Shown: positions 10,701 to 51,962 of the stretch, in pieces
Layout of the letters: every line of letters starts with the position of its first letter
Numbering within the stretch: the stretch's first letter is position 1
DNA from: Fistulifera solaris
Taxonomy: Eukaryota > Bacillariophyta > Bacillariophyceae > Naviculales > Stauroneidaceae
Direction: 5' to 3'
Assembly (NCBI GenBank): GCA_030295235.1
Contig: AP026133.1
Location: forward strand, 620,001-684,000
DNA: 64,000 nucleotides
The notes under the pieces: model-generated
Database searches by the model: none
Told to the model about the DNA's origin: nothing
The model's input: the letters and a program-made list of their open reading frames with translations, nothing else
Program-made: the position numbers and the translations under genes

Positions 10701-13438
10701 CAATGCTATCATCTCAGACGGACATTGGCTACCGAATGCCTGACAGCGTCATTGTTACGTAAGTGCATTAGTAGCTTTCTAGCCAACTGAATTGCTGACG
10801 TTTGACTCACAAACGCATTCTTTGCCACTTGACACAGTGTGTGGGATGATGTAAACCGAAATGGAATCCAAGACGTGGGCGAAAAAGGTCTTCCCAACGT
10901 CCCTCTCCAGCTTGTTCTCTCCGATAAAGTAACAACTCTGGCTGACGTGGGAGACGGTGGAACTGCACATTTGATAGTGAAATCTGATGCCGACGGGATC
11001 GTTACGTTCACGATGGTGCCCATGAACGTTGATCTCCGTGTAAAAGTCGTGCAAATGCCAGCAGGCGCAGTACCAACACTGAGCAACAGAGGTAATGAGA
11101 CTGTTGACTCCGATCTGAACAGTGACCTGACAACAGATTCTTTCCGTCTTTCTGGAGGGGGGAGCCTTTACAGCAAGGGATATCGGCATCTCTATGCCTG
11201 GTTCAGTGATTGTGCGGTATGTATTTAGTGCGCATGTGTCTCTTTGATTGAGGCCTTTTTCGCTCAGGCTCTATTGTTTGCAGCGTTTGGGATGATGCCG
11301 ACGGAGATGGGATACAAGACGAGGATGAAGTGGGAATCCCAGGGGCAACGTTGCAATTGGTCGATGCCGTAACGTCTGCACCGCTTGGAAGCACAGGAGG
11401 AAACGCGCACGAGTCCCAGGTCACTGACAAGAATGGCTATGTTGTCTTTACTGGTGTCCCTCAAAATGTGAACATCCGGTGCCGCGTCGTTAATAGCCCC
11501 CAGGAGCTATTCCTACATCAAAGGGCGGAGGCAATGAAACCACGGATTCCGATCTTAATAGTAACGGTCTCAGTGACTCATTCAGATTGGTTGGTTCCGA
11601 ATTTAGTGAGGTACGACTTCGTCTCGATAATGCATTTAGTGGTAGAAGAACCAAAAATGATCACATTGCGTGCTAACTATTTGCTTTCCAGATTGATCTT
11701 GGCTATAAAATGCCCGACGTCGTAGAGGTGCGAGTGTGGGACGATGCGAATGAAAACGGAATTCAAGATGAAGGGGAGACAGGAATAGAAGGAGTTGAGC
11801 TTCGACTTGTGAATGACACCCGACAGGATCTTGCCGTACAAGCGGAAGGCAATGCTCACGAAGTGCTGACAACGGATGCGAACGGTATCGCTCTGTTTAC
11901 GATGGTCCCCAAAGGGATTACTTTGCGTGTGAAAGTCGTCAATCGACCTCCTGGGGCTATCGAAACCTCGAAAAGAATCGGAGGCGATAGCAATAACGAC
12001 TCGGATCTAAACAGCGACTCATTTAGCGATTCATTCGATCTGCGCAATTTTAATGGAGGTGTTTACGGATCGATTGACTTGGGTTATCGAATGCCTGAAA
12101 CTCTTGAGATTCACGTGTGGGATGATATGAACTCGAACGGTATCCAAGATACTGGCGAGCCAGGTCTGCCTAACGTTGTGCTTAAGCTCGTGAAATCCGA
12201 CAGAACTGAGATTGCCGCCATTCAAGGAGGAACGGCGCACCAAGCAATAACCACGGGTCCGGACGGAGTGGCCCGTTTCTTAAAAGTTCCCAAGTCCGAG
12301 ACTATCCGAGCCATGGTGGTTGCTCCGCCGCCTGGAGCCAAGCCCACATCTAAAAACCAAGGTGGCGATGAGATGCTGGACAGTGACCTAAACGGCGACA
12401 TGTACAGTGATTCCTTTCAAATGGCTTCCTTCCGTGGCGCTGGAGCTCTCGGCATGGTACGTATTGTTCAATGATCTTGTTGTTGACTAAGAGTCTTTGG
12501 AAAGGAACGTTTCATGCACTAATCTTTCGCTCTGATTGCTTTACAGCTGGACCTCGGATTCCAAATGCCGGCTGACATGGTCGTTCGTGTTTGGGATGAC
12601 TTTAACGGAGATGGAATCCAAGACGCTGGTGAACCGTAAGTACTTGTTGTGGTTGTTGTTTCTTGATGGCACCCTCGTTGGATTGAAATCTAATTGTTGT
12701 GCATGTTCTCCGTCGAACGACAGAGGAATTCAAGGTGTCGAACTAGGAATGGTCTTGAATGATAAAGTCACGCCCTTGCCGAATATTGGAGGCGGCAGCA
12801 ATGCTCATCTGGTAAAATTCACTGACGAAAATGGCTACGCCACCTTTGTGGGGGTGCCTCGGACCGAAACCGTACGGATCAAAGTCATGAATGCCCCGCC
12901 TGGTTCCGTGCCGACTCATCGAAACCGCGGTACAGATGACCAGGCCGACTCGGATATGGGAACGGATTTAGTGACCGACTCTTTCGATATGAACAACTTT
13001 AAAGGCGTCGGAGCTATCGGTCAAATGGACCTCGGCTTCCGCATGCCCAAGACAGTGGTCGTCCGTGTTTGGAGAGATACCGACGGCGATGGCATTCAGG
13101 ATGAGAACGAAGAAGGCTTTGAAGGTATCCGCGTACAGATTGTGAACGCCACGACCCGCCTCCCTCTTCCCGAACAAGGAAACAACGGGACCGCACACCA
13201 GGTCCTCACCACAGGTTCCGACGGACGGGTTCGTTTCACCAAAGTTCCGCAGAGCACTTCCATTCGAATTCGAGTTTTGAATCCTCCTACCGGCTTCCGC
13301 GTCACCCTGAAGGATCGTGGAACAGATGATCAGCTAGATAGCGACTTGAATACTGATCACTTTACGGATGGCTTCCTTCTACCGAGCAATGTCGCGGAGC
13401 TTTTCGACATGCGAGACTGCGGATACAGGCCCATTTAA
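7789..13438 (+). CDS. Secreted VWD / cystine-knot-like / SdrD-B-repeat protein (11 exons)
   Basis: Start at the ATG at 7789 with a signal peptide (MRLITSIVGTSFLLNLAAHG). Exons with GT-AG introns: 7789-8318, 8387-8558, 8614-9059, 9124-9310, 9395-10650, 10718-10758, 10838-11216, 11284-11610, 11692-12456, 12547-12635, 12724-13438. Order: two Cys repeats; a VWD domain (SGDPHITTFDGHKYDC spliced to QAEGEVILAKSL); six more Cys repeats of type CX5-6CX4-7CCX4CXnC; then eight SdrD-B/Cna-B-like repeats, each with a V-VWDD-N-NGIQD-GE signature and a calcium-binding-like D-D-N-NG-D loop. Three frame breaks need repair: one base missing in C5 at 10158-10162, one extra near 11177, one missing in C5 at 11497-11501; the total is then exactly 1635 codons plus stop. 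Cell-surface adhesion or matrix function is inferred. The last four repeats are duplicated downstream. Confidence 0.85.
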
Positions 13439-13887
13439 TTCTTCATGCGGGCAATTTCCCAGTCCTTTAGTGATTCGCATACTTGATCTTCATATCTCAA
13501 TACATAATATAATTAAAAATAATCAATTTCAAAGTAAAGAAGCCAAGTATAGTAACCTCATGGATTATTGAAACAAATAATGTTGCTGCGTTTCGCTTTT
13601 GCGCAATACCTGGTAAAGCGTCAAGCTCGAGAGTGATCTGTGCCTCGTGACTAAAATGCAGTCGTGGCGAAATACAGACTACACAATAGAGCGATAGTCA
13701 TTGTGGATGAGCACAATCGGAACCGCTTTTTGCTGTAAAGAATTAAGTGACAATGGAACTGGTATGAACGATAATTGCATCATGAATAAGGCGCTGGAAG
13801 ATTGTTGATCGTGCAACACGGATCAAATACAACCAGGTGACGAGTAAGCACAATCATTAAGCCGTTAACGAAAACTATAGTCAAAAA
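13439..13887. other. Intergenic region (unit 1)
   Basis: Lies between the convergent ends of the SdrD-like gene and the ribosome recycling factor gene. It contains an AT-rich run (13500-13530), a TACCTGGTA motif at 13607 and, at 13656-13667, ATGCAGTCGTGG, the core of the repeat family also seen at 52201-52815. Confidence 0.5.
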
Positions 13888-14781
13888 TTATTCCACCGCC
13901 ATGATACTATTATGTTTCTCTTCGGCTGCACGATTGAGCTCATGAATCGCTTCTTCGGTTGCCGCCTCAACTTCTTGTTGAACTCGGAACGCATCATCTT
14001 TCGACACATGCTCCAATTTCCCGCGACACCTTTCTTCGTGACATCCATCGCCTTGCGGCGCACTTGTCGAATGCCTTGACGATACGACTCGGCACGTTTT
14101 GCCAATGTCATGGCAATCTTTTGACGACTTTCTAACGAGATACGAGGAAGGGGGAATGTTAACGACGCCATCTTCGGCGGAGGGATTGAGATTGAGCTGT
14201 TGTGAGACGGCCATGCGTACCGCCTTGGCAAGGGACGGATCAAAGCAAGTAGCTGTCGCCAACGTGGGTGATACCAACACGACTTGTGCGACCGATTGCA
14301 ACGAAGTGCGAGCACCGTACGCTTCCACTTGGACGTTGTCAAAGAGCGCGACGGTCGGCTCGGCGCCGCGCATGTTTTTGAGCGAATCGACAAAGCGTTG
14401 CACAATTTGTTTCATTTTGAGTTTAGTTTGTTTCGGGTCGGGGAGTAAATTCTGCTCTTCTTCTACTAGTTGCTCATCGTCCTCTTGATATAACTCTTCT
14501 TCGGGTTGCTCAACAGCTGCTGCCTCGTTTGTCGTCTCCGCTTTCCTTGACTTCTTTTTTTGACGACGCTCTTGAGCCTTTTTCTGACTTTGTTCGTGCG
14601 CCAGTTCATCCAAACGCTCCAAATGTTGTCCCATTTTCGCACCCGAGTGTTTAAAACGCCACGACGATGCTACAGTATCCACCATCGGAAGTGTCGAGGG
14701 ACGGAGGTTGACGACGACTCCTCGACGTCCCGTGTATTGCAGAGATTGTCGTAAGAGAGAGGGGAAACGCGAGGCATTCAT
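13888..14781 (-). CDS. Ribosome recycling factor, organellar (unit 1 copy)
   Basis: 297-codon frame, start at the ATG at 14781. An N-terminal basic region rich in Arg/Ser (MNASRFPSLLRQSLQYTGRR) looks like a mitochondrial presequence, followed by a Lys/Glu-rich linker and the RRF domain: FVDSLKNMRGAEPTVALFD, VEAYGARTSLQSVAQV, FDPSLAKAVRMAV, LNLNPSAEDGVVNIP, then the helical QGIRQVRRKAMDVTKK and the C-terminal helix ending NSIMAVE. RRF splits post-termination ribosomes with EF-G. Compared with unit 2, this copy has an extra G at about 14151-14155 and a missing C at about 14018-14022. The two breaks cancel, so the middle of the RRF domain is read out of frame while the ends are normal. Probably an artefact or a damaged copy. 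Confidence 0.85.
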   Translation of the reverse strand: MNASRFPSLLRQSLQYTGRRGVVVNLRPSTLPMVDTVASSWRFKHSGAKMGQHLERLDELAHEQSQKKAQERRQKKKSRKAETTNEAAAVEQPEEELYQEDDEQLVEEEQNLLPDPKQTKLKMKQIVQRFVDSLKNMRGAEPTVALFDNVQVEAYGARTSLQSVAQVVLVSPTLATATCFDPSLAKAVRMAVSQQLNLNPSAEDGVVNIPPSSYLVRKSSKDCHDIGKTCRVVSSRHSTSAPQGDGCHEERCRGKLEHVSKDDAFRVQQEVEAATEEAIHELNRAAEEKHNSIMAVE

Positions 14782-15089
14782 TGTTGCGTAGGAAAGAACT
14801 GAACGAAATCAAAAGTAGAGACGCTGAGGTAAGGCTCATTGTTTTGGATGTGAATGGTCAACATGAAAACGGCGCGCATCACAATTTACATCATAATACC
14901 TGGTACCCCGTAGTAGCATCAGATTGGCGGAGTCCGTCCATCGTACGTTACGTGGTGAGAGTTAAAAGGCAAAGCCGACGAGGCGAGCGACCACGAAAAA
15001 AATCTCTCAGGCATCAAACTATTCTATTCTGAAAAGCAGAAAATAGCTGCAAAGAGTGTCATGACAACTCATTTCCTTTTCCTTCTTTC
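14782..15089. other. Divergent promoter region, RRF / FAD oxidoreductase (unit 1)
   Basis: 308 bp between two divergently transcribed genes, so probably a shared bidirectional promoter. It carries an ATACCTGGTACC motif at 14896. No other structure is evident. Confidence 0.4.
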
Positions 15090-16485
15090 ATGAATCTCAT
15101 AGCACTGCGGAATTACGCCAAAACTACGGAAGCTCTCGCAACGACATCCTCTCGCATTGCCGTCATCGGAGGAGGGGCCAGCGGCATTTTCGCGGCCATT
15201 GCGGCCGCCCAAAACGGCCACAACGTTACCGTCTTTGAAGCCGCGGCCAAGACACTCTCCAAAGTCCAAATCTCGGGTGGTGGACGCTGCAATGTGATGC
15301 ACAATGCGAGTCGACCAGTCACCGAATTGTTGCAACAGTATCCCAGAGGACAACGCGAATTGCAAGGCTTGTTTCAAAAACGATTCCGTCCGGAAGAATG
15401 TCGGGCGTGGTTTGAACAACACGGTGTTGTCTTGAAAACAGAAGCAGATGGTCGCATGTTCCCCGTTACCGACTCGTCACAAACGGTCATGGATGCCTTG
15501 TTACAGGCGGCGGCGCGAGCGCGCGTGAAGATACGGACGCGCTGTCGAGTTCAAGCGTTGCAGAAACCCAACAACAATCAAACATTTACGGTTTCTATAG
15601 TCGACAAGTCCGTATCAGATCAAGCTATAGTAAAAGAATGCTATGACGCTGTGATCTTAGCTACTGGCTCAATGCCTTTGGGCTATCAATTGGCCAAGTC
15701 GGTGGGGCATTCGCTTGTAAATACGGTGCCGTCGTTGTTCACATTGAATGCCGATGAGGCCGTTCGTCCGGGAGGTGTTTTGCATGGATTGTCGGGTGTT
15801 TCGGTGCCGTTAGGTCGGGTCTCGTACTGGCCGCCGAACACGGAACCGGTGCGGAAGAAAGTATTACACGAACAGGAAGGTCCGTTGCTCATTACGCACT
15901 ACGGATTATCCGGACCAGCGGCATTGCGAGTCAGTGCGTTTGGAGCGAGGCTTTGGCGGAGCATTCCTACAAAGGAACTCTGAAAGTACACTGGGCACCC
16001 TCGTTTGGATCCAGCGTAGAGGATATTTTCGATCAGCTGTGGTTTATGACGACGTCAAATCCGCGAAAAATCATTTCGACGGTGTGCCCGTTGATTCGAG
16101 CCGATCCGGTGACGAGCACTGTGACAACTGCCATTCCACGACGTCTATGGAGTGCACTGGTGCAAGCGGCCGGTGTCGACGAAGCGACAGTCTGGGGCGG
16201 TGTTTCAAAAAGGTCGTTCGCCAGCTGGCACTGCAAGTGGCGGAATGTCCCATTACGATGACCGGTAAGGGAACGTTCAAAGAAGAATTCGTAACAGCAG
16301 GAGGTGTTCCGTTGAAGGAAATTGATATGACACAAATGGAAAGTAAAGTGTGTCCTGGTTTGTTTCTTTGCGGGGAAGTCATCAATGTGGATGGAGTGAC
16401 GGGTGGTTTCAATTTCATGAATGCATGGGGGACGGGATACGTGGCTGGAAATGCAGTGGGCGACTCGATCAGGAGAGCGGCATAA
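15090..16485 (+). pseudogene. FAD-dependent oxidoreductase, BaiN/HI0933 type (unit 1 copy, frame broken)
   Basis: Start at the ATG at 15090. The N-terminal dinucleotide-binding motif VIGGGASGIFAAIAAAQNG and the family motif SGGGRCNVMHN are intact. Relative to the intact unit 2 copy (34595-35992), one A is missing near 15951 (GAGGCTTTGG versus GAGGACTTTGG) and one in the A run near 16211-16215. The frame is therefore lost between about 15952 and 16213 and resumes for the C-terminal LFLCGEVINVDGVTGGFN motif. If the breaks are real, the protein would end shortly after the first one. See the unit 2 copy for function. Confidence 0.75.
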
Positions 16486-16681
16486 AAGGAGAGAAAGCTG
16501 GCTACAGTTTATGCTCTAAGTTATCGCTATGCTCATGACATGGCATCTATTGTTTCGATGAGCGAGAACAACGTCCGTCCCGACACAGATGCATGATCTC
16601 AACTTTGCCATTTTGAAAAAGCTGGTGGACTGGGTGCTGTATCCGTCTGTGAGCAACAGTAAAGGACCCTTTGTCGTGATT

Positions 16682-17530
16682 TCAATTTTTCTGTTGCCTT
16701 GTCGGCCTGATTTCTCCAGGATTCGTCAACCAGTCCTGGGAAAAGGTGAGACCAGTGACTGCTTCCAAGTCCGTCCACCGAACCAAGAAATCTTGATAGT
16801 CGCTTTTCTCGGGAAGCTTTTCATTCGGAACCACGAAACAGGCGAATTCACGGATAGAGTAAGCTCTCTCTGGTTGATTTGGATCAACAACTACAACGAC
16901 TTTAAACAAATGAGTCGGAACAGATACTAATGATGGCGGATTTCCCAATCCTTTGTATTGGTATTCAAATAGCTTGTCTTCGAGTTTTCGTTGCGGAAGC
17001 CAAAGAGGCCCCGTCACGACGTAGGTCTCGTATTGTTGTTGTTTCGCTCTTCGTGCCACTCCTCGTGTCCACTTTTCCAGCCCCGCCCAAACCCCTCGAT
17101 TCATATCGGACGATTGTGGGGCTATATTGATGAGATTGTAAGTGTCTGATCGATTGTCTTGGAAGTCTGCCGCTGGTGCCATGTGCCCTCGGTCGTATCC
17201 TGATAAGTGATAATGCGAATTGCGAGAACGAAACCACTCGGGAAGCGATTTTTCTTCGTAAAAGCGATGTCGACGTTGATCTGTATTGGTTGTTTCGTCC
17301 GTGACGGTGAGGCGTTCCATGACATAGACGGGTGTCCTAGTTCGAACGTCAAAAGCTATTTCAAGATAATCATTCGGTCGGAAAATACGAATCGGAATCC
17401 AGGGCGACAGATTTGCGTTCGCCCAATCGCTTTCCGAAGTGTACAAGGTGCCGCCTACTGTCGTCGACAAGACGAGAGTTGGAAGGGCTATCCCTCGGAG
17501 TACTGCATTATGAAAGATCCGGGAGGCCAT
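16682..17530 (-). CDS. Endonuclease G-like DNA/RNA nonspecific nuclease (unit 1 copy)
   Basis: 282-codon frame from the ATG at 17530. The catalytic motif DRGHMAPAADF of the beta-beta-alpha-metal NUC family is present, with the downstream NLINIAPQSSDMNRGVWAGLE (metal-ligand Asn). The N-terminus is hydrophobic (LRGIALPTLVLSTTVGGTLY), as in mitochondrial or secreted EndoG proteins. Near 16741-16745 this copy has A4 where unit 2 has A5, so it ends GLTFSQDWLTNPGE... instead of GLTFFPGLVDESW...; the unit 2 reading (LTFFP) is closer to known EndoG proteins. It is tail-to-tail with the FAD oxidoreductase. Cleavage of nucleic acid in mitochondria or outside the cell is inferred from the family. Confidence 0.85.
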   Translation of the reverse strand: MASRIFHNAVLRGIALPTLVLSTTVGGTLYTSESDWANANLSPWIPIRIFRPNDYLEIAFDVRTRTPVYVMERLTVTDETTNTDQRRHRFYEEKSLPEWFRSRNSHYHLSGYDRGHMAPAADFQDNRSDTYNLINIAPQSSDMNRGVWAGLEKWTRGVARRAKQQQYETYVVTGPLWLPQRKLEDKLFEYQYKGLGNPPSLVSVPTHLFKVVVVVDPNQPERAYSIREFACFVVPNEKLPEKSDYQDFLVRWTDLEAVTGLTFSQDWLTNPGEIRPTRQQKN

Positions 17531-18031
17531 GGGCCCTTGGTGTTAGAAAATGTTATTGAAGTGAGACTTGGAGGCTGTTGAAAGAAGAAAGGTACCTGGT
17601 ACATGCCGCATGCCGATAACAGAGAGCAAAATGCGCCGATGACTTTTGCGGACGCGTAAACGGAAAAGTGCGCATCCCTGTTAGGGATAAGGGATAGAGA
17701 CTGACCGGTGCTATGTGCTATGGTTTTTCCACAGTAGATTTTGAAAACCGGTTTAGGAAGATCTAGGTTTTACTGGCGACCACAATGTCATAAGATCAAC
17801 TCAAATCAGAATTCAGCTAGCTTTCTTCTCCCCTTCGTAGTTACTACGTAATAAAGCTTGTCGGCACCTCTGTTCATTCCTTATCCAAACACAAAACATT
17901 CGCGAGCCGAAGGTTCCAGTGAAACAGCAACGTGCGCATCGGTGATCAGAGCGTTGTCAGTTATTGGATGAGAGAATGATGAATAGTTTAGTCTAGTGAC
18001 CACTTGATTCAAGCAAACGTTGCTGAACATC
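17531..18031. other. Intergenic region between divergent genes (unit 1)
   Basis: About 500 bp between the nuclease gene and HMG-A. Contains GGTACCTGGTACATG at 17591 and a short direct repeat TTAGGGATAAGGGATA near 17680. No open frame of note. Confidence 0.4.
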
Positions 18032-18946
18032 ATGAGCCTGTGGAATGAAAGGAAACCGCAGGCAGACAGCGACCGCGTCAAGCGGCTTAAACGGAGGGCC
18101 CGAACATCAAGGTCTTCCACAAACTGCTTATCCTTATTCCCTCGCCAATCAATTGCCGCTCGGTTATACCATGAACGCACCCCTACCACCTTATGATGAA
18201 CTAATTCATCCTTATTCGTCCGTAACATCGTACAATGTCCGAGACCAACTTTTGACACAACTGATCGCAGCACAACTGACCGGATCTATCCTGTACTCCC
18301 AATTGTTTCCACTGCATCCATACTTTCCGATAAGAAACGAAACCGTGACATTTATACATGAGCACCATAATTCCGGCGTCTTTCGAATGCAACCTAACCA
18401 ACCATCCGATCTCGTAAGCAGCGATGAACCGTCACAACATTCAGCTTCCTTCTCGGCACTCATACCGCCAGTCACAATCGACAGCCGACAACAGATACCG
18501 GCTGAAGAATCCACGCAACAAACACCTTCTAGTTCGTTACTTAGCAAGCCAAAGCGTCCGTTATCCGCTTACAATGTTTTCTTTCAAGAAGAACGTGCGA
18601 GGATTGTCAAAGAGAGGGAGCTCCAAAACAGTAAAGATGCTCCATTAGACTCGTCAAAGCAGCGGTACCAGCCAAACGGGACCGGTTTCGAAGATCTGGC
18701 AAAGGAAATTAGCAAGAGATGGAAGAGCATCGACAAGAAGCGTCTTGACAAATGTTCACAACTTGCCGAAACTGATACGGTAAGATACCAAAAGAGCTGG
18801 CTGCGTACAAGGAGCAAAGAGAGGCCAAGCTTTCGGCAATGCAGCAAGCTCAAGTAGCATCTGTATCGGAAGAGGCATGGAAGCGCTATATCGCGGAAGC
18901 AGAAAAACAAAAGCCTCTTAGGAACAGGAAACGGAAACGAAAATAG
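18032..18946 (+). pseudogene. HMG-box protein A (unit 1 copy, frame broken)
   Basis: Homologue of 37542-38461. The ATG at 18032 starts MSLWNERKPQADSDRVK but the frame is lost near 18088, where unit 1 has an extra base relative to unit 2 (CGGCTTAAACGGA versus CGGCGAAACGGA); the next frame runs 18045-18857. The HMG box is clear: KPKRPLSAYNVFFQEERARI, then NGTGFEDLAKEISKRWKSID. The second break at the A4 run 18790-18793 is shared with unit 2; one added A gives a charged C-terminal tail (LAAYKEQREAKLSAMQQAQ) ending at 18946. DNA-bending chromatin protein by family. Reading frame status is uncertain for the reasons given in the summary. Confidence 0.75.
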
Positions 18947-19125
18947 TGTTCGCAACTTTCTTCAAATGCTTTTGTCAACGTCTTTCAACACAGAACAATG
19001 ACTAACGAAAAAATCTCGACGAAAACGCGAGTTCCCCATTCTCGTGCAAACAATCGTAATGTATCTTTCACTATAAATGATGATGGTTTTGTTTTAGTTT
19101 CATCAGCGTCGACCTTCATTCCTGG

Positions 19126-19467
19126 TCAGAAACGGTTTGGTGGCATAAATAATGAAGCAAAACCCTCGCCGTTTGGCCGGTGGCAGCGCACGCACTGGCT
19201 GATGACTGATGATGATTCATTCACGCGAAGCGTAGATCGAGAATTTAGACACGAGTGCTCATTTTCGCGATCTTCGCGCGGCGACTTTTTTGTACACCCT
19301 CCTCTTCGTAAAATATCAACAATATCTGCTGATTCCTGACTAATTTCATCTTCGTTTGTGTCATTGTAAGAGATTTGGTGTTTCCCGCTAGATTCTTCTT
19401 TGTCCGATGACAATCCACTGTCAGGAAGCAAGAAAAGGGGTTCCTTGTCCGATGTATGACCATCCAT
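19126..19467 (-). CDS. Small acidic hypothetical ORF (unit 1)
   Basis: 113 codons from the ATG at 19467 (MDGHTSDKEPLFLLPDSG), acidic Ser/Asp/Glu-rich, without recognisable domain. The unit 2 counterpart starts at 38977, with replacements S to P, N to D and D to E in the first 50 codons, and loses the frame after GGCTK because of a T-run difference. The amino-acid changes are mild but not clearly under selection. It could be a real small nuclear-type protein or a chance frame. Confidence 0.3.
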   Translation of the reverse strand: MDGHTSDKEPLFLLPDSGLSSDKEESSGKHQISYNDTNEDEISQESADIVDILRRGGCTKKSPREDRENEHSCLNSRSTLRVNESSSVISQCVRCHRPNGEGFASLFMPPNRF

Positions 19468-19614
19468 GCCTCTCTTCTACACAACTGTCGAGAGCAACAG
19501 TGTGAATAAAGGCTCATGCGGGCACAAACCCCCATGTCGAAAAACAAGTCGCTTTCCTAGCAAACCGCACCAGCAAGTTATATCGCAGCACTCTTGTAAG
19601 CCGTTTCCGCATCA

Positions 19615-19970
19615 TCAACGTTGGTAAAGCACAAAACTGTGCCCTTCGTCTGGGTCACGAACAACGAAGGCAAAATCAATAGTTCCGGTAAATTCTCCAT
19701 CAGCATCGAGCAAAAATCCCAAATGCAACACCTATCGTCAAAACTACCATTGTCGCGAATCCTTCTCTTTTCCCATTCCTTCTCTCTTATTCATTGCTTT
19801 TCTGGCCATTTCGCTTTTCTTGACGTCGGCCGACATGACTTTAAAACTCTGATCAGGAAAGGTGTCGATAACCATAAAACCCTCTCGGAACTGGGACAAT
19901 GTTGAAAGGTACTTGTCAAAATAGGCAACAAAACCGATTGTGTGTTCGATTGCACTGCATAACTACATGA
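19615..19970 (-). pseudogene. Fragment of an unidentified protein-coding gene (unit 1)
   Basis: Reading leftwards from about 19970, a coherent stretch appears: TIGFVAYFDKYLSTLSQFRE, then GFMVIDTFPDQSFKVMSADV, KKSEMARKAMNKRE, and after a frame break near 19757 a hydrophobic VLTIGVAFGIL and a terminal DFAFVVRDPDEGYSFVLYQR before the stop at 19615. No start codon is visible; an AG at about 19955 could be a splice acceptor. Copies in both units differ by single-base indels. I do not recognise the family. It may be the last exon of a gene or a decayed remnant. Confidence 0.4.
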
Positions 19971-22900: not shown

Positions 22901-23756
22901 CATAGCAAGCAAACTCTGGCGACTGCTATCAATTGGAAGCTTCCTATTCAACCATTTGTAGATCACAATGACCAGCTTTGCTTTATCTTTGTCGCAGTTT
23001 GTTTATTGCAAATGCAGCTGAATCCCAGGAAGGGTGATATGAATTTCGTTCGATCGAGGCCCCTCTAAAAGTAACAAAATAGTTTCCTACAAAACGGAAA
23101 GTGACAACTAATACTGACATGATCAAAATTCAAAATGTTGTGATGCTAGACTAATTCGATGAGAAGGATCTTAATAAGTCAGTCGAGGAAGAAGAGTCCA
23201 CAAGAGACATTATCACGCACACGGGAAATTCGGAAAAGTGGCCGAAAGAGCTTTCCATCGATTTCGTGCACAGCAACGGATTACTTTGGCAGTCGTCAGT
23301 CATCACTGCATCTCAAATCATCACAAGCTTCTCCGCGCTCTTTGAGTCCCAGATTTTTTGCTCCCTAAGATCAAACTGGCATTTTAGATTCTGTTTCGGG
23401 AGAAAAGACTAAGAGTTACGTCAGTCGACATTTAGTAAGGCGAATATTGTCATAAGATACGTATTGTAAGTAGAGAAACTAATACTCTAAAGGACAATTT
23501 CAATAAAATATTCCTTCTGTACAAAATACTCGCTAATGGGAATCCGAGACATCATGACCTATAGCATGGAGCATTAACGAACGCACCTCAACCGCCATCG
23601 TGAACATTCAACTGTGAGAGATTGTCAGTCCGTTCAGCACCCAGCGGCAACAACAAACGAAAGAAAGCATATATCCATTTCCTTGCACCCTGAGACCTTG
23701 CAACTTACAATCAGTGAGACAACTGCCAGCTAGCTCGTTCAGCAGCGGCGAAGAAC
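19971..23756. other. Long gene-poor region (unit 1)
   Basis: About 3.8 kb with no gene I can support. It contains simple TTACGA-rich stretches (20520-20650: repeated GAGTTACGACTTACGCCTTACGACC), ATACCTGGTAC motifs at 21455 and 22535, and short open frames (such as 21486-21755 plus) whose differences between units are mostly amino-acid changing, so not evidently selected. This is the part of the unit that differs most from its partner, including a ~29-bp segment at about 22755-22790 missing in unit 2. Confidence 0.4.
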
Positions 23757-30246: not shown

Positions 30247-30282
30247 TAGTTGAACTAATTTACAAAAAAACACTATTGTTTC

Positions 30283-31140: not shown

Positions 31141-31193
31141 TAGCGGTAGAAGAACCAACAATGATCATTGCGTGCTAACTATTTGCTTTCCAG

Positions 31194-35992: not shown

Positions 35993-36022
35993 AAGGAGAG
36001 AAAGCTGGCTACAGTTTATGCT

Positions 36023-38977: not shown

Positions 38978-39125
38978 GCCTCCCTTCTACACAACTGTCG
39001 AGAGCAAAAGTGTGAATAAAGGCTCATGCGGGCAAAAACCCCCATGTCGAAAAAACAAGTCGCTTTCCTGGCAAACCGCACCAGCAAGTTATATCGCAGC
39101 GCTCTTGTAAGCCGTTTCCGTATCA

Positions 39126-39480
39126 TCAACGTTGGTAAAGCACAAAGCTGTACCCTTCGTCTGGGTCACGAACAACGAAGGCAAAATCAATAGTTCCGGT
39201 AAATTCTCCATCAGCATCGAGCAAAATCCCAAATGCAACACCTATCGTCAAAACTGCCATTGTCGCAATCCTTCTCTTTTCCCATTCCTTCTCTCTTATT
39301 CATTGCTTTTCTGGCCATTTCGCTTTTCTTGACGTCGGCCGACATGACTTTAAAACTCTGATCAGGAAAGGTGTCGATAACCATAAAACCCTCTCGGAAC
39401 TGGGACAATGTTGAAAGGTACTTGTCAAAATAGGCAACAAAACCGATTGTGTGTTCGATTGCACTGCATAACTACATGAC
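39126..39480 (-). pseudogene. Fragment of an unidentified protein-coding gene (unit 2)
   Basis: Counterpart of 19615-19970. The stretch GFMVIDTFPDQSFKVMSADV is open here, and the terminal part LTIGVAFGILLDADGEFTGT to FVLYQR is read cleanly in one frame, since this copy has A4 rather than A5 near 39227. One break near 39266-39272 remains. Confidence 0.4.
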
Positions 39481-42400: not shown

Positions 42401-43224
42401 CTTCCTATTCAATCATGTGTAGATCACAATGACCAGCTGTGCTTTTATCTTTGTCGCAGTTTGTTTATTGCAAATGCAGCTGAATCCCAGGAAGGGTGAT
42501 ATGAATTTCGTTCGATGGAGGCCCCTCTAAAAGTAACAAAATAGTTTCCTACAAAACGGAAAGTGACAACTAATACTGACATGATCAAAATGTTGTGATG
42601 CTAGACTAATTCGACGAGAAGGATTTTAATAAGTCAGTCGAGGAAGAAGAGTCCACAAGAGACATTATCACGCACATGGGTAATTCGGAAAAGTGGCCGA
42701 AAGAGCTTTCCATCGATTTCGTGCACAGCAACGGATTATTTAGGCAGTCATCAGTCATCAGTCATCACTGCATCTCAAATCATCACCAGCTTCTCCGCGC
42801 TCTTTGAGTCCCAGATTTTTTGTTGCTTATGATCAAACTGGCATTTTAGATTCTGTTTCGGGAGAAAAGACTAAGAGCTACGTCAGCCGACATTTAGTAA
42901 GGCGAATATTGTCATAAGATACGTATTGTAAGTAGAGAAACTAATACTCTAAAGGACAAGTTTCAATAAAAATTCCTTCTGTACAAAATACTCGCTAATG
43001 GGAATCCGAGACATCATGACCTATACCTGTAGCATGGAGCATTAACGAACGCACCTCAACCGCCATCGTGAACATTCAACTGTGAGAGACTGTCAGTCCG
43101 TTCAGCACCCAGCGGCAACAACAAACGAAAGAAAGCATATATCCATTTCCTTGCACCCTGAGACCTTGCAATTTACAATCAGTGAGACAACTTTCAGCTA
43201 GCTCGTTCAGCAGCGGCGAAGAAC
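39481..43224. other. Long gene-poor region (unit 2)
   Basis: Counterpart of 19971-23756, with many substitutions and indels: a shortened TTACGA-rich segment (40020-40180), a missing ~29-bp segment at 42255, and a duplicated CAGTCATCAGTCATCA near 42750. No gene is supported. ATACCTGGTAC recurs at 40935 and 42026. Confidence 0.4.
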
Positions 43225-44103
43225 ATGAAGCGATCGGTGAAGAAAACAGATGAATCAGAAGGCGGCAATTTAGAAAAATGGGCAAAAGATAGGCTAGAGC
43301 AAAACCATCCGCAACACGGCAGCGCCATGCCAATCTACCAGGTTTCGAATGCGCCGATACATCTTAACGATTACTTGTTGCCTTCTGTAAACAACCAATT
43401 GGTTGCAGCACAACATCTCACGGCAGTCATCAATTCTAATGCATCGAATTTGCTCAGACGACCCACTTCTAATAGTTCCGCAGTATATTCACCGCAGATC
43501 GTGAGCCTCGACACAGCATTGCGTGCGGATTTGGTGCCTAACGCACTGATAGTACCCTATCAGGCTCAGCCGATTGCACCAAGTCGTCAAACAGAGATGG
43601 TATCTGTCGCACTTACGAATTCTACCGAACGTTCGCTTTCCGGACCCACGCCAAGCAAGCCTAAGCGTCCTTTGTCTGCGTACAATGTCTTTTTCCAAGA
43701 AGAGCGTGCGAAAATAATAGAAGAAAGAGAAGGCGTAGAGAGAAACGACTCATCCGGCAACTCGCCAACCAACAAAAAACAGCGTTACCAACCGAATGGA
43801 ACAGGTTTCGAAGATCTAGCTAAGGAAATCAGCAGACGATGGAAGGCTGTCGACAGCGAGCGGCTTTCTGAATGCACCCGGCTTGCGGAAGCCGATACGG
43901 AAAGATATCAACAAGAGCTCGCAGAGTATAGTAAATTGAGAGAAGAGAGGCTATCAGCGAAGCAGCGCGCTCAAGCCGCCTCAGTGTCCGAAGAGACCTG
44001 GAAAAACTATCTTGCAACTGCAGAAAAACAAAAGCCACCGCGGCCATCGCGGAAGCGGTCAAGGAAAGGGATAGATCATAAGATCACGGATAAAAACGTG
44101 TAA
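43225..44103 (+). CDS. HMG-box protein B (unit 2, intact)
   Basis: 292 aa, ATG at 43225. Residues about 1-145 are low-complexity Asn/Ser/Ala-rich without domain. The single HMG box spans about 147-225: KPKRPLSAYNVFFQEERAKI, KKQRYQPNGTGFEDLAKEIS, RRWKAVDSERLSECTRLAEA. A coiled, charged tail (RLSAKQRAQAASVSEETWKN) and a basic end (PPRPSRKRSRKGID) follow. It is the only one of the six HMG-box copies with an uninterrupted frame, and serves as the model for the other two paralogues. DNA-bending or chromatin role by family. Confidence 0.92.
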   Translation: MKRSVKKTDESEGGNLEKWAKDRLEQNHPQHGSAMPIYQVSNAPIHLNDYLLPSVNNQLVAAQHLTAVINSNASNLLRRPTSNSSAVYSPQIVSLDTALRADLVPNALIVPYQAQPIAPSRQTEMVSVALTNSTERSLSGPTPSKPKRPLSAYNVFFQEERAKIIEEREGVERNDSSGNSPTNKKQRYQPNGTGFEDLAKEISRRWKAVDSERLSECTRLAEADTERYQQELAEYSKLREERLSAKQRAQAASVSEETWKNYLATAEKQKPPRPSRKRSRKGIDHKITDKNV

Positions 44104-46033
44104 ATCGAGGCAACATACGAAGTTCGTCACGTTGAAAATTGTTAGCTTTTCGCTCGCCGAAGGAGGAGTAAAGGTTCGAATAAGGATCTGAGAAAAGCGA
44201 GACTGATGAGTATGAAGGCTTGTATTGAAGATTGCGAAGCCCTCACGATAGTGCGTTGGTACGCTCAGATTCGAAGCGGAGAAACAAGCAGTTGCTCTGG
44301 TTTCCAAATGTGCTATCCAGGGTGAGCTCATGGGCAAGCTGCGACGAATAAATTGATTTGCCCCGTTGATTTTGCAATAATGTGAGGGCTTGCAATTCCA
44401 GTGATGGGTTTAAAGACATGAAGTCCAGCAATCGAACCAACGATCGCAACCATCGATTGCGTGGTGCGGAGATCGTTTAGTGTATGTTTTCATTCAGGCG
44501 TCATGCGTCATAGCGCGGTCTAAAGCCGCGGAGTTTTCAGTGTTCAGGATTCAGGATTCATACTGCGAAATTTCTATAGTCTTTGTAGCTATTGTCTTTT
44601 CGGGCTGGGACGAATGACGAATGCCGAATGTCATTACGAGTGCTACTTAGCTCGATGATTTGATTTGAGTCCCTTTTGTTCTTTCGGGAACATAAAAACT
44701 AGAGAGACATCAAGCCAACGTCGCATGTCAAATTTAATCCTCTTCATATTAGTTCCTTTATTTTGCATCCGGTTTTAAGCGTATTAAGCCGCAGCTGTGT
44801 AACCTCTACTGGCGACAAATTATCAATAATTACATTTCTTTCAAAAGCGTAACTACGATGTATGAACTTCTTCAAGGCAATTAATGGCAAATTTTCCAAA
44901 ACCATACCCTGCATTGATTCCAGTAAGAATGTAGTCGTTGTAGCTAATCAGAATTCAGAACAGTAGAAGTTGCGCTAAAAATCCAACAGATGCCGGCAAC
45001 ACGAAAGTCATGTTTGATGAAAGAAAGGCAATCACATTCATACGGTTGATAATGTAGCAAAATCAATCTGCTCAGAGCAATTGTTGCATGTTGTCGGTTT
45101 GATAATCAAGTATGAAGACTCTGAGTGCCAATGATTTCAGTCCATGACAAGAAATAGAATTTTTATCACTCTGTTCCATTCCAGAGATTAGCTAAAGGTA
45201 TCCAGCCCTACCAGGTAGCCATGCTTCATGCTAGGCTGCATCGGTCGTTGGCAAATACTTGAGCGGCATTTCTTAAATCTCTTCTCATGACTACTTAGCT
45301 ATTGTATGCCGCTCACCCGCCCCTAGCTAGAAGGCGGTTTCTTTCTAGGGTCTAGGGTCTCAAAAGTCTCTAGTCTCTAGTAGAGTCTAATTAGGAGGTA
45401 TTAGTCCATGACGAGAAATAGAATTTTTATCACTCTGTTCCATTCCAGAGATTAGCTAAAGGTATCCAGCCCTACCAGGTAGCCATGATTCATGCTATGC
45501 TGCATCGGTCGTTGGTAAATACTCGAGCGGCATTGCTTAAATCTCTTCTCATGACTACTTAGCTATTGTATGCCGCTCACCCGCCCTAGCTAGAAGGCGG
45601 TTTTTATCTGGGGTCCAGGGTCTCAAAAGTCTCTAGTCTCTAGTAGAGTCTAATTAGGAGGTTTGTTTAAGTAGAAAGCCTCTGGGAGAGGGAGCTGGAA
45701 AGAAAGAAACGCATGTTTTATGTCGTCGGTTGTCGGTTGTAGGTTGTAAATGATGTACGATGTGGGATCCAAAATGGTTTACTGAGGAATAAACTGTCAT
45801 ATGATATTACGAAAGACCGTGTCGTCGCCTATTTAGACTATTTAAGAAAGTCCGAAGCTTTGGATCCTACATCTACATCTGGCTTAAACCTTCGTCGAAG
45901 CGTATCACCAACATCAGTGGATCTGAGGCAAAACGGAAAAAATTAGGACATGAAAGCAGCAGTTGGCTCAAAATAAAGATGGGAATCAAAATGCTCATTC
46001 GATGCAGCTTTGTGGGTGAATGCAGCAACAATC
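44104..46033. other. Intergenic region with nested repeat (unit 2)
   Basis: Counterpart of 24632-26560, nearly identical base for base over 1.93 kb. No gene is visible. Confidence 0.5.
45139..45661. repeat. 263/264-bp tandem repeat, two copies (unit 2)
   Basis: Copy a 45139-45402 and copy b 45403-45661, same as in unit 1 with one extra C in copy a (CGCCCCTAGC). The small tandem repeat therefore predates or was copied with the large duplication. Confidence 0.9.
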
Positions 46034-47048
46034 ATGAGCCAAGCGAATGCCAACAAACGGTCTTTGGGCGCACATAGCGTTGCGCGGAAACGCGAATGCA
46101 AACGCATGCAAGACGATCTTCAAATTCAAACCATTGTTGCACAAGCCATTGAACACGAACTTGTGCCATTGCCATCAGTTACACAAGTTCCTTCTCGTTT
46201 TAATCCACATCACTTGTCGACACTAAATTCTTCAAAAAGCGACAGCGGATCATTGCAACAGCTTGAGCCACAAACAAGTTCAATTGATCCGCACGATCGC
46301 GCTTCAATTCTCGGTCTTACTGTAGTAGCTATCCTTGAGCACCATCATCAATGCCACCAAATTAGAGATGTCGACCACATGTTGCGAAGGGACTCGGCGT
46401 CAATTTACAGTGCAGCTGATTCTCATTCGGCCCTAATCACAGGCACCAAAGCTGTCGACAAACGGGTGAGTCTGTCAACGGATCAAAACTCCAGCGGCGA
46501 CCACCAAACTTCTTCCGATTTAAAACGTCCCTCTGTGGCGTCAACCGCCTCAGCCATTCACAGTCCTTCAAATCAATCTGCTGCTGGTAGTTATTCGCCG
46601 CGATATCATTCCGAGTCAAAACTTGCCAAGCCGAAGCGTCCCCTATCAGCTTACAATGTCTTCTTCCAGGAAGAGCGCGCCAAAATCATTGCCGATCAAA
46701 AGGTAATCAGCCCGCTTCTCCTCCGGAATCATCGCCCTAACCGAAAGCAAAGATATCGACCAAACGGAACTGGGTTTGAAGATCTCGCCAAAGAAATCAG
46801 CAAACGGTGGAAACATGTCGGAAAGGAGCGCCTGGAAGAATGCACTCAGCGCGCAAATGCCGATATGGTTCGGTATGAAACCGAGCTGGCTCTGTATAAT
46901 GAGCAAAGGAGGCAGCCTGTCGGCGAAGCAGCGTGCTCAAAGAGCCACGGTGTCCGAAGAAGCTTGGGCGCAGTATCTCGCCGCTGCCGAAAGTCAAAAG
47001 CCTCCCCGAAAGAGAAAGTCAAAGAAACGATCTTACCAAAAACCCTGA
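46034..47048 (+). CDS. HMG-box protein C (unit 2 copy)
   Basis: ATG at 46034. Long N-terminal region of about 205 residues with a His-rich stretch (ILEHHHQCHQIRD), then one HMG box: KPKRPLSAYNVFFQEERAKI, RYRPNGTGFEDLAKEISKRW. Near 46905-46920 two bases are missing relative to the expected EQREARLSAKQRAQ; without repair the frame ends at 47068 with unrelated sequence, and with repair the tail (ATVSEEAWAQYLAAAESQKP, basic KRKSKKRSYQKP) ends at 47048, 338 aa. The tail homology with HMG-A and HMG-B supports the repaired end. Confidence 0.85.
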
Positions 47049-47483
47049 GAGGGCTGTATGTTTTTTGAGGCCAACGAGCGATGAGAACGCATGAAGATTG
47101 AACCGATAATGAAAACAAGAACTTGAGTTCAGTGGTTCGAAATGCGGTCTTCAAAAACAGTTTAGTCGCTTTGTGATGAAGAATTTTCCGCCAAAAGCTT
47201 TTTGGCTATCATAGTTTTCCACTACTTTTTACCCTAATCATGAAACTTTCATCTTAGTTGAGAACTGTCTTTGCAACCAAGTCGCCTTCCCAAGTAGCCT
47301 AGTTACAGCGTACAACAAACAATACTTGGTAGAAACATGATCAATGTGAAAGAATATACCAAGTACTCCGGTAATAAGGAACATTCAAGGCGGAAGCAGC
47401 GGTTAGCACGTTTATGGTCGCGTGCCGCGTGTGAAAACGTAGGATTTCTCGGGTACCGGTACCGATACCGGGTACGGTACCTG
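47049..47483. other. Intergenic region up to the transposon target (unit 2)
   Basis: As in unit 1, including the GGTACCGGTACCGATACCGG palindrome cluster at 47453-47483 immediately left of the insertion. Confidence 0.5.
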
Positions 47484-47661
47484 GTACAGCTGTTTGCACA
47501 ATGGCCCAGACTTCATGTAGGTTCCGTAGAAGTCTACCACAACGGAGTTGAGTCGCGGTCCGACTACTCCTCCGCCCTACTCCCATCGCGACAAATCTCG
47601 TGTTGTTTTCGAGAATGCCGATCCTATCATTACATTGCTAATAACACTTGCAGACTGCTTT

Positions 47662-47735
47662 AGTCAGGCACGATCAACACACATATTGTTCCTTTTTTTA
47701 TTTAGCATCGATTGGTATATATATCGTGCCTGACT
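47662..47735. repeat. 74-bp inverted repeat inside the transposon
   Basis: AGTCAGGCACGAT (47662-47674) is exactly inverted as ATCGTGCCTGACT (47723-47735) around a 48-bp AT-rich centre. It could be a nested miniature element or a hairpin belonging to the host element. Confidence 0.75.
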
Positions 47736-48012
47736 CAAAACATTTCGGTTCTCAAAACTGTCGGTGAAAATTGGCACACGTTTGTGTGCAGTGATGACTC
47801 GCGGGCTATCAAGACAAATGGATTTGTGGAGAGCATTTTCCTTCAGACCTTGAAAGATCATCACCCAGCACTCAAAGAGAGCTTGGTTCAACAAAATTGA
47901 CACGATCATTGTTGAAGAAAGCCATTCCAATCATGAAATCGATGATGAAGACGGAAGTGACGATATGGACAAGTTGCCGTCAGAGGGCGAAATAGAGGAT
48001 GAAACAGACTAA
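47712..48012 (+). pseudogene. Coding remnant with acidic C-terminus inside the transposon
   Basis: A frame from 47712 to 47900 (NWHTFVCSDDSRAIKTNGFV, then ESIFLQTLKDHHPALKESL) is followed, one frame over, by IVEESHSNHEIDDEDGSDDM and DKLPSEGEIEDETD ending at the TAA at 48010-48012. An acidic tail after a short conserved-looking segment resembles the 3' end of a transposase-like gene, but no catalytic motif remains, so the assignment is only an inference. Confidence 0.4.
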
Positions 48013-48611
48013 ACAGCGCTGGATCGCTTCAGCGCTCATGGCAGAGTACTAATTTCATGTAATTTCAACTTACTTTATCAAGAAATTCGCTTTAAGATGC
48101 AGCAACATGAACAAGAATGGTAATGAGGGCATGTTGCAAGTTGCAAGAAGGGAGCGAGATTTTGCGCGAAACGGTGCGTGCCTGTCGGTCGTGTGACGAT
48201 GCGTGACTGACCCGGGACTGAAATGAAACCGACCATTTGTTCAAACAAAGGTAGGTTTAAAAGAATTGATGACAAGAAATTGCTGTCAAAAATGATTAGT
48301 ATCAGTATGATCAAATTTATTTTCTGAAAAAGATGCTTTTTCAGTCAAATCATAGGTTTTCGTGAAGTAGACTTAGCTCCTACGCGAAAATGGCACGTAG
48401 ATTTTGTACTATCCGGTACATTTTCTACGAAAGCTACATAGGTCAGTGACCGGAAGCAAACAGCTGTACCAGAGTAACTAGTAGACTCCTCGTGCCCATT
48501 TCTCCATACTGTACAGCTAAGTAAAAGCGTCCGAAGTATCAACGGAAACAACGCTTTTGGGTACGAAACTCGTCCGAGTACCGCATATCGCCGAAGCGAC
48601 TTCCAAGCATT

Positions 48612-50686
48612 ATGAAAGTTCACGAGGAGGTCACAGTCCTCTCTCTCTACCTGGTGTTGTTGCCTCTCTTCTCTTTTAATTCGTCCAGGCAGCGTGTCAA
48701 GGTGGATTTCTCAGAGAATGCGCTACCGAAGAGGTTATCTATAGGCGCTCGTTATAGCAAAGGCGGGCTTATGAGTCGCCAAGCCCTCTGGTCGAAGAAA
48801 ATCACATTTGCTTTAATCAGTGCTGCGATTGCGTTCTTCGCCGTCAGATTACATCATGGGACACGAATTGTCCGGCAACTTCGAAATCTCCAGACTCCAA
48901 AAGATGTCTTCGTGGACAATCTGAGAAGTTTCTCGACTTTGGAGCGAGAAATAGGAGGCATCTCTCTGCGGCATGTCCCATTAGCTAGTTTCATTTCTAC
49001 TGGTACAGGAGATTGGATGTCTTTTTTAGATGACAGTACGCTTCTTTCCCAAATTTCGATTCCTGGTACTCACGATAGTGCGGCTGCCATTGGGCGGCCG
49101 CTTTGTGATACGCAGAATTGGAACCTCTTGGATCAGCTGCTAAGTGGAATACGCTATTTGGACATCCGCTGTCGTCCTGTGGACAACTATTTCAACATTC
49201 ATCACGGTGTTTGCTTCCTTCATCAACGATTTGATGATGTTTTGAAAGTCGTATCCGGTTTTCTTTCAAATCACGCGGGCGAGACCATCATTATGCGAGT
49301 ATCTAATGCATTCCGGCCTTCTCACGACGCAATAAGCTTCGAGCAAATATGGAATAGATACATGGAAGATACTACCTACGGAACTTTATTTGTGCCCAAT
49401 TTGAGCAGTATCCCTACTCTGGGTGATGTGCGAGGGCGAATCATTGTTGTCAGCAATGAGCTAGGACCCCGACCGAATTATGGATATCAGTTTTTGGAGG
49501 ATCATTCACGAGTATTCAGGACGCATTCGAAATCGATAGTGATGAGAAAGTTGCTGAAAAAGTCGATCTTATTGTCACTCAGATGGAGAAAGCACCACTT
49601 CAACCTGAAAGGCTTACTTTTAATCATTTGAGCGGAACTGGACTTCCTGATTTACGTTTTACTCCAGAAGATGTGGCAGTGACGACTAATAATGCTGCCT
49701 ACGATCTAATCGGCTTTGGTGACTTTAAGCGGGTGGTTGGGATTTTAATTGCAGACTTTCCAGGCGAAGGACTCATTGGTCGAATCCTTTTAGTAATTTC
49801 GGAAAAGAGCTGGAAGAAAAGCTCAGGGCCCAGAATCAATTTCAACTGTATTCCACGACGAATTGCGAAGAAGGGAAACAAGTTGGGTACCTAGATTACC
49901 CCTACCCCGGAGGATCGGTCACAACACGCTTGTCGGATGAACCTGACGTAGATGACAATTCGGCGAGATCCATACTTCTTTCCGGGCCAGTGGAAGCAGG
50001 GACTAGGATTCTTGTTGGTGGGCTGTCTGATCTACTGGGGAAAAGCGATAGTACAATCATAACCGTCGTTGAAGATGTTCTGGAAGGGGGTTCTATTTGC
50101 ATTGAGAATCTCAGGAAATCAACCATTGAAAGTCAATTCGTACAAACATACCAAGAGTTTGCTGAAAGAAAAACCAATCTTCCGTCTTCTGTCCGAGTGG
50201 AAAGACCAACCGATGAAACCAAAGAGTTTGCTGTCACATTGACGAGGGAACTGCATTGGACGGGACGATTTTGTGCTGGAAAATCCTCCGAGAGTGCCCG
50301 GGGAGGTCTCGTCACTGGCATTCTGCGGTCTCACATTAAAGGTTGCCAGTCACTAGCGCAGTCCAAAACAAAAATCTGTGCTGGAGAGTCGTCGTCGTTG
50401 GACGAGCTTCGTTTCGCTCCTACGCAAGTCGAACCAGTGTCGAAAGGGATATTATGTTGGACAAACAAAATGCTTAGGACTGAAGTGCTCGCGAATGATG
50501 ATTCGGTGCTACAAAACAACGAGCTTGTGCTCACTCGACGCCAACGGACCAACATCGGTGCGTAAACTGCGTTATGGTGACGAAGATTTCTGCCCCTTTG
50601 GAACAATTTTAACCGGCGTAGAGTGTCAAAGACCAGCCTGCGTTGTCCTTACCGCATATTGCACAAAACTGACTTATACTCCTTAA
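48612..50686 (+). pseudogene. PI-PLC-X domain protein (unit 2 copy, frame broken)
   Basis: ATG at 48612. The X domain with GTHDS and HHG is intact. Breaks: the T5 run 49491-49495 (shared with unit 1), a T lost near 49787-49790 (CCTTTTAGT versus CCTTTTTAGT), and two bases lost near 50397 (TCGTCGTTGG versus TCGTCGTATTGG). If real, only an N-terminal part of the protein would be made. Amino-acid differences near the active site include QLRSG to QLLSG and DNHFN to DNYFN. Confidence 0.8.
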
Positions 50687-50722
50687 TAGTTGAACTAATT
50701 TACAAAAAAACACTATTGTTTC

Positions 50723-51962
50723 TCAAATGTCAGGTGCGGCAATTACGCTATCCACCCAGTACTCCTCCCTCTTTTTCTTTCGTGATCTCGTCGAGCGTTG
50801 TTTTGTTTTCCTCTCTGACACTTCTGTCCACGCATTTAAGTGTCGCTCTGCAGGATATAAGCCAGCCCCCGTCATGTTCTGCAATGCTTCGACTGCACCG
50901 GTCCAGTTCCCCACAGAAACTGCTCCTTGCACCAAGAGTGCGTACGATGCTTTGTCTTTCGCTCCTACATCATGAACATTGAATTGATCTTCTCCGTTTT
51001 CCGGTTCGGGACCGCGCGATCTTTCTGTCAGATTGTCAGATAGCAACAGTGCAGCTTCCTGGTGAAGTCCCAAAGATTGATATACTGCGGCAATCGGATT
51101 CACATGCCGCGAAACTAACGGAATACGGTCTGGCAATTGTTTTACCACTTGCACTGCGCGATCCAAAGGTTCCCTTCGACTGGTTAACGATAAATGCTTC
51201 TTCTCCCGTGCCGCGCAAACACAGGCCCTCATTAAGCTCATAATCATTGTGTCCGTGATAAAAACGGTAGGTTCGTATTTCCTTCGTGATCGTCGACTTT
51301 TAGTAGCCGATTCTGTACTCACTCGGTCTAGCCATTTGTTTTCTTTTTGTTGTACTTCGTTGTATATTTCCAGTGCCTTCTCCCATTCTCCCAGCTTCGA
51401 GCATGCCACCAACGCACCTTCGTAATGAATGTTGGTTCGTTCAACTCTTCCTACACTACTACCACTAGTAGCAGTGGTGTTAGTCGGCATCACCATACGA
51501 TCATACGAGCGCAACGCATACCTCCACATGGCCGGCTGTGCCGACTTTCGTGCATTCTTCCAGATGGTCCCCGCGTATCCTTGGGGATCCATCGGTGGAG
51601 GCTGCGTGCGAAAATTGGGATTGTACGGAGAAATGCCTCGGAAGGGGGTGCCATCGGGGCAAAAATGTCGAATCTGAGGACGGGCCAAAGGATCGTCGAG
51701 CCATTTCAAATATCATGGCGGTCCCGCCATTCAACGTTTTGACAAGATCACCTCGGCGAGTCGGTTCTTCGTCTTGTTGATTGCTGGACATGCTTGCCCG
51801 AACGGACGCCCTCTTGTCGTTGGAAAACGTTCGATAAAGCAACACATGGTTTGTAGGAGCGAAAGCAAAAGCCTGCCACCATCTGCTTGGTATTTGATTC
51901 AGAAAAAGGACCAGCAATGGTATTAGGACGAAGGGACGGCGTCTTGGTTGTTTCCTCGTCAT
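50723..51962 (-). CDS. PPR-like protein, plastid-targeted (complete copy)
   Basis: ATG at 51962. N-terminus RRPFVLIPLLVLFLNQIPS is a signal peptide followed by WQAFAFAPTN, an ASAFAP-type site used for diatom plastid import. The mature part has helical-repeat character: GYAGTIWKNARKSAQPAMWR, GALVACSKLGEWEKALEIYNEV, ASYALLVQGAVSVGNWTGAVEALQNMTGAGLYPAERHLNAW, the last two matching PPR motifs. Plastid RNA processing is the usual role. One extra base near 51708-51712 separates the targeting part from the rest; removal gives a 412-aa protein (AMILKWLDDPLARPQ). Its 5' end lies outside the duplicated unit, so this is the only complete copy. Confidence 0.8.

Follow-up and report, generated by a model that had tools for sequence, protein, structure and literature searches.

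The 64,000-nucleotide stretch of Fistulifera solaris DNA analyzed here (the window, positions 620001 to 684000 of contig C8 [AP026133.1] in an assembly of 51.7 Mb and 61 contigs) carries a block of genes twice in a row, which raises the question of whether the genome holds a tandem duplication or whether an assembler placed two diverged haplotypes in series. The comparisons described below point with good confidence to a genuine tandem segmental duplication on the L homoeolog of chromosome pair 2, most likely one of the ordinary kind and fairly recent. Positions without a contig prefix are those of the window.

When the window was compared with itself by BLAST, positions 11637-28011 matched 31141-47487 at 97.9% identity and positions 28008-31141 matched 48466-51581 at 98.7%, in both cases on the same strand, the sole interruption of the repeat being 978 extra bases in the second copy. 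Direct alignment agreed with this result and delimited unit 1 (U1) to 11637-31140 (19,504 bp) and unit 2 (U2) to 31141-51580 (20,440 bp), both on the forward strand; U2 is longer because of the 978-bp insertion. Since the similarity extends over 19 kb at ~98% identity, the repeat is not a product of chance. The boundaries at 11637, 31141, and 51580 are exact to the base, with one T assignable to either side. The initial annotation, which had described a direct tandem block of ~19.5 kb present twice at 11637-31140 and 31141-51580, was therefore right about the arrangement, about the coordinates to within that single T, and about the length of U1, the length of U2 being 20,440 bp.

The duplication junction, where the end of U1 meets the start of U2 (31136-31146), contains this one ambiguous base and no Ns, and no N was found in C8:600001-704000, junction included, in keeping with the gap-free join reported initially. 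A 301-bp junction query matched the genome over its whole length once, while its halves also matched at C8:631637, C8:671581, C7:756994, and C7:776208, C7 being the homoeologous contig introduced below. Both breakpoints lie inside genes. The left boundary is crossed by an SdrD_B-domain gene (7735-13435, forward strand; Pfam SdrD_B on two exons), whose extent reflects reading frames conserved with C7 rather than a start codon, and the right boundary is crossed by a PPR gene (50723-51962, reverse strand). At the junction itself, both genes recur without their 5' parts and face apart: the PPR copy that ends U1 (PPR', 30283-31140, reverse strand) points to the left, its frame crossing the junction by a few codons and its first in-frame Met lying at 31089, and the SdrD copy that begins U2 (SdrD', 31141-32939, forward strand, delimited by self-BLAST and open reading frames [ORFs]) points to the right. 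The join shares at most 1 bp of homology. Repeat-mediated breakpoints were considered and rejected, as the longest word common to the ~100 bp around both breakpoints was 8 bp in direct and 7 bp in inverted orientation, with 1 bp at the join.

F. solaris is described in PMC13276009 and PMC5935921 as an allodiploid with two homoeologous chromosome sets. Given the matches to H-type and L-type proteins of the older F. solaris annotation (FisN names), C7 is, on sequence grounds, the H-type homoeolog and C8 the L-type homoeolog of chromosome pair 2. FisN_2Lh332, a partial protein, corresponds to the right-boundary PPR gene, with 229/229 residues identical in two frames separated by one frame break, and the C7 counterpart of that gene corresponds to residues 1-338 of the 362 residues of FisN_2Hh332 at 100%, likewise in two frames. 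C7 also matched the H-type HMG proteins FisN_2Hu326, FisN_2Hu327, and FisN_2Hu328 at 98.5-100% over 304/304, 353/353, and 202/218 residues, respectively, with FisN_2Hu326 and FisN_2Hu328 at 100% over the aligned residues. When C7:730001-810000 was compared with C8, the two contigs were collinear over C8:606597-700653, save for small off-diagonal and inverted matches; identity was 82-90% in the aligned pieces of more than 2.5 kb (n = 13) and 69-79% in many shorter ones.

C7 carries one unit only (756994-776208), with the same neighbors and collinear flanks on both sides. Because C7 has a single unit, the two copies on C8 probably represent the derived state, the less simple alternative being that C7 lost one. 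Using the C7 unit as the outgroup in a three-way alignment, we counted 230 substitutions between U1 and U2 in 19,407 comparable sites (1.2%), along with 61 gap events; 76 of the substitutions were derived in U1 and 98 in U2, and 56 could not be placed. The pooled, uncorrected synonymous difference was 1.45% between U1 and U2 and 24% between U2 and the H copy. The other "haplotype" of this genome is C7, and since the difference between C7 and C8 is the organism's haplotype difference, U1 and U2 are far more alike than its haplotypes are.

These observations bear on whether the repeat could be a false heterotype duplication, that is, two L alleles set in series by the assembler, which we consider unlikely. 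Such an error would require the L subgenome to be heterozygous. It would predict the observed topology of left flank, two units, and right flank, together with the mosaic of identity described below, and the locus does resemble the false heterotype duplications described in PMC9516828 in having ~98% identical copies in series on one contig. According to that source, however, false duplications are mostly separated by gaps, although they are sometimes joined across a depth gap, whereas no assembly gap occurs at the junction here, and the second haplotype is known from a separate contig. In searches with the flanks, positions 55714-60290 matched only C8 and C7 (84%) over their length, the 11 other matches listed being at 74% or less; the left flank (1-7000) matched C8 as a whole and C7 in pieces, and otherwise only short repeats and one sequence at 69% among the best 40 of 419 candidates. 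C8 contained two of the three genome matches to the nuclease region, and C7 contained the third. Among the matches listed, there was no third close copy of the flanks or the unit and no further near-identical contig, although collapse during assembly would conceal such a sequence. The allodiploid description in PMC13276009 and PMC5935921 also argues against an allelic origin, the second chromosome set being C7.

The older annotation provides a separate witness. It derives from a draft that PMC5935921 describes as a de novo assembly of next-generation sequencing data only, whose authors grant that misassembly is possible, and it contains both sequence types: FisN_2Lh332 is of the U2 type, and FisN_UnNu004 is of the U1 type. 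The partial FisN_2Lh332 ends at 51275, between the U1/U2 variant sites 51274 and 51276; a 792-bp run identical in U1 and U2 starts at the FisN_2Lh332 stop, the last three differences being at 51274, 51276, and 51345. FisN_UnNu004, which from its name ("Un") we read as unplaced, lies on a 6,350-bp contig. It matched HMG-box gene 1 of U1 at 303/304 residues, the match being split into three pieces by frame breaks, but showed five mismatches and one gap relative to the U2 gene in the first 256 columns. This gene lies in a variant-rich block of 6,403 bp (U1) or 6,365 bp (U2), which is bounded by substitution-free runs of 1,639 and 952 bp. The likeness between a 6,350-bp contig and a block of ~6,400 bp is suggestive only, the extent of the contig being known by its length and not by its ends. 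Breaks at such sites are expected where a short-read assembly meets two near-identical units. For two alleles set in series, the presence of both types without linkage would also be acceptable, but the allelic bubble should then close at the common right flank, whereas the older L gene stops just inside that flank. Taken together, the separate single-unit contig C7, the absence of Ns, and the presence of both types in the older annotation support the lean toward a real junction that the initial annotation had expressed when it offered duplication and misjoined haplotypes as the two options.

The divergence between U1 and U2 is patchy, with substitution-free tracts of 0.8-1.9 kb alternating with tracts at 2-3%. 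Chosen low tracts held 24 differences in 9,628 bp (0.25%), and the remaining 9,779 bp held 206 (2.11%); since the low tracts were picked after the data had been seen, the fair test is a simulation of the longest runs. In 5,000 simulations in which substitutions were distributed in proportion to local H divergence (0.30 being assumed where H was unaligned), a longest substitution-free run of 1,862 bp and a second of 1,639 bp, as observed, were never reached. The 37 synonymous differences between the units were likewise uneven among genes (Monte Carlo P = 0.0006 by sites and P = 0.0018 when scaled to H divergence), the extremes being 0/213 sites in the nuclease gene, 0/206 in the PPR gene, and 8/188 in the SdrD exon. 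Gene conversion between the units would explain this patchiness, as would older allelic variation.

The latter possibility leads to a variant of the preferred explanation that is compatible with a real junction, namely, a tandem duplication formed between L haplotypes that had already diverged, such that most U1/U2 differences are older and conversion is unneeded. The sharp switches between substitution-free and 2-3% tracts fit such variation, as do the changes in SdrD', all of which are synonymous. In contrast, the changes in PPR' (3 nonsynonymous and 0 synonymous) all fall on the U1 branch, as expected after truncation, although these numbers are too small to decide the matter, and no L heterozygosity was visible in the assembly in the flank and nuclease-region searches. 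We regard this inter-haplotype origin as unlikely, if less so than a misjoin. The per-gene branch counts are small and differ in direction; the PI-PLC gene, for example, has 7 nonsynonymous and 1 synonymous changes on the U1 branch and 3 and 1, respectively, on the U2 branch.

Of the 38 single-base indels between the units, 22 lie inside or within ~11 bases of a run of at least four of the same base. HMG-box gene 1 has one frame break, relative to the older protein, that is common to U1 and U2. The H copies of the PPR gene, HMG-box gene 2, and HMG-box gene 3 are also frame-broken relative to FisN proteins that they otherwise match, HMG-box gene 1 of H being intact, and single-base frame breaks occur in two of the three 100% protein matches on C7 (FisN_2Hh332, FisN_2Hu326, and FisN_2Hu328). 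Pseudogenization of U1 as the main cause of the frameshifts was rejected given the homopolymer context and the occurrence of frame breaks in U2 and H as well. The U1 frameshifts look mostly like homopolymer errors of the long-read consensus, and since they are probably consensus errors, we call none of the internal genes dead.

Several points weigh against a genuine duplication with subsequent homogenization. The base was missing in U1 in 26 of the 38 single-base indels and in U2 in 12, a roughly 2-fold excess that neither this reading nor consensus errors account for. All 4 changes on the branch of SdrD' in U2 are synonymous (0 nonsynonymous), although nonsynonymous ones should be commoner in a dead fragment; this would fit a fragment that has been retained, conversion from U1, or divergence older than the truncation. 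Two alleles from a population that recombines would also fit the mosaic of identity. From the older annotation, both sequences are known to occur in the species, but this does not by itself place them in series, and that the older L contig ends where the partial FisN_2Lh332 ends is our supposition. Finally, the lack of allelic pairs within a subgenome is a premise taken from the papers that call F. solaris allodiploid.

Under a genuine duplication, the second unit would have formed by end joining or by a template switch during replication that involved sister or homologous chromatids, with a full gene left at each outer boundary and two divergent remnants lacking their 5' parts left at the junction. 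The genes between the breakpoints would have come to twice their former dose in the L subgenome, and the copies would later have been partly homogenized by gene conversion.

The 978 bp specific to U2 (47488-48465, forward strand) are a nonautonomous DNA transposon with inverted ends AGCTGTTTGC and a GTAC target duplication, which was present in all three copies checked, the U2 copy included. At least 10 full-length copies at 98-100% identity, counting that of U2, occur genome-wide, and two others are identical to the U2 copy; shorter and more diverged relatives are also present. Given the full-length copies at 98-100%, the family appears to have been recently mobile. Neither U1 nor C7 has room for the 978-bp element at the equivalent site, so its insertion postdates the duplication or, if the units are or derive from alleles, is allelic, as a misjoin would also allow. 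With the base substitution rate of Phaeodactylum tricornutum (4.77e-10 per site per generation; PMC6604790), divergences of 1.2% overall and ~2.4% in the variant-rich block (156/6,403) place the duplication roughly 12-26 million generations ago. This age is a lower bound because conversion erases divergence, and it may err in either direction owing to the borrowed rate and, under an inter-haplotype origin, to older alleles.

Other small repeats were seen in and around the units. A sequence of ~260 bp occurs twice in tandem inside each unit (25667-26189 and 45139-45662; 96% identical) and, being found in both, is probably older than the duplication. A ~170-bp repeat at 4600-4773, present on both strands at dozens of genomic places and 75% identical to its reverse complement, resembles a miniature inverted-repeat transposable element. 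A separate local tandem pair of ~0.76 kb lies upstream of the unit at C7:741705-744126 and, judging by cross-matches, is on both homoeologs.

The claim that both units share one gene order was borne out by ORF, Pfam, and homology comparisons: SdrD-like, RRF, HI0933-like flavin adenine dinucleotide (FAD) protein, Endonuclease_NS, three HMG-box genes, PI-PLC, an ORF lacking a Pfam match, and PPR, the SdrD-like copy of U2 and the PPR copy of U1 being 5' truncated. Pfam scans covered some of the gene copies, and the rest were named by ORF list, alignment, or homology. The RRF-domain gene lies at 13888-14808 in U1 (Pfam) and at 33392-34312 in U2 (ORF list and alignment to U1), on the reverse strand. 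The FAD protein gene follows on the forward strand, its frame broken in U1 (15033-16485) by single-base indels that are probably consensus errors and open in U2 (34307-35992; Pfam HI0933_like). The Endonuclease_NS gene, on the reverse strand at 16682-17542 and 36023-37051 (Pfam in U2), has zero substitutions between the units. The remaining genes up to PPR are on the forward strand. HMG-box gene 1 was identified in both units (18032-18943 and 37542-38458) by Pfam and homology to FisN_UnNu004; gene 2 by homology to FisN_2Hu327 in U1 (23622-24628) and by Pfam and homology in U2 (43090-44100); and gene 3 by homology to FisN_2Hu328 in U1 (26731-27571), where its own Pfam scan gave no match, and by Pfam and homology in U2 (45977-47068). 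The PI-PLC-X gene (28109-29188 and 48525-49631; Pfam in both units) is followed by the ORF without a Pfam match (29017-30246 in U1, with the open part in U2 at 49729-50565), which may belong to the PI-PLC gene.

The regions holding the three HMG-box genes (17700-28000 and 37200-47500) are only ~69-82% identical between L and H, relative to 88-90% in neighboring parts of the unit, and the nonsynonymous divergence (dN) between L and H is 0.11-0.15 for the HMG and PI-PLC proteins and 0.02-0.07 for the other genes measured. Genome-wide, at least 109 HMG_box (PF00505) matches were found among the best 150 of 164 candidates; boxes are clustered in groups of at least two at several loci, and several matches are apparently in homoeologous contig pairs.

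Tandem segmental duplications of nuclear genomes are direct, low-copy repeats of more than 1 kb and more than 90% identity. The F. solaris units resemble them in being direct, adjacent, and ~98% identical, in having breakpoints within genes, truncated copies at the junction, and a transposon in one copy, and in showing signs of homogenization. They differ from the usual case in that a single subgenome of an allodiploid alga carries them, the single-copy homoeolog providing a built-in outgroup. They also differ from the homoeologous gene pairs of F. solaris described in PMC5935921, of which C7 and C8 are an example, in that both units are on the L chromosome. None of the paper titles listed in literature searches concerned this duplication, although it may be described in the genome papers on F. 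solaris (Maeda 2022, Tanaka 2015).

The names of the older proteins suggest that "u" stands for unpaired and "h" for homoeologous, the HMG proteins being "Hu" and the PPR protein "Hh." The three "Hu" HMG genes do have L partners, two apiece; for the FAD gene, no FisN protein was found among the best 120 of 7,989 matches, whose clusters possibly hide members, so this result carries no information on its copy number in the older assembly. PMC5935921 gives 122 nonhomoeologous genes on H and 56 on L for chromosome 2. We tentatively raise the possibility, itself rather doubtful, that such units evolve in concert by repeated conversion and that unresolved tandem duplications mimic "H-only" genes, so that part of the H excess would be an assembly effect.

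If the duplication is genuine, the L dose of the RRF, FAD protein, Endonuclease_NS, three HMG-box, and PI-PLC genes would be doubled in this industrial oil diatom, and a knockout here would face three copies per gene rather than two. It would also explain the apparent H-only HMG genes of the earlier annotation, in which a short contig of its own carried one L copy. With a single-copy homoeolog available, the duplication can be dated and its homogenization measured, and the main use of the finding would lie in correcting "H-only" gene calls.

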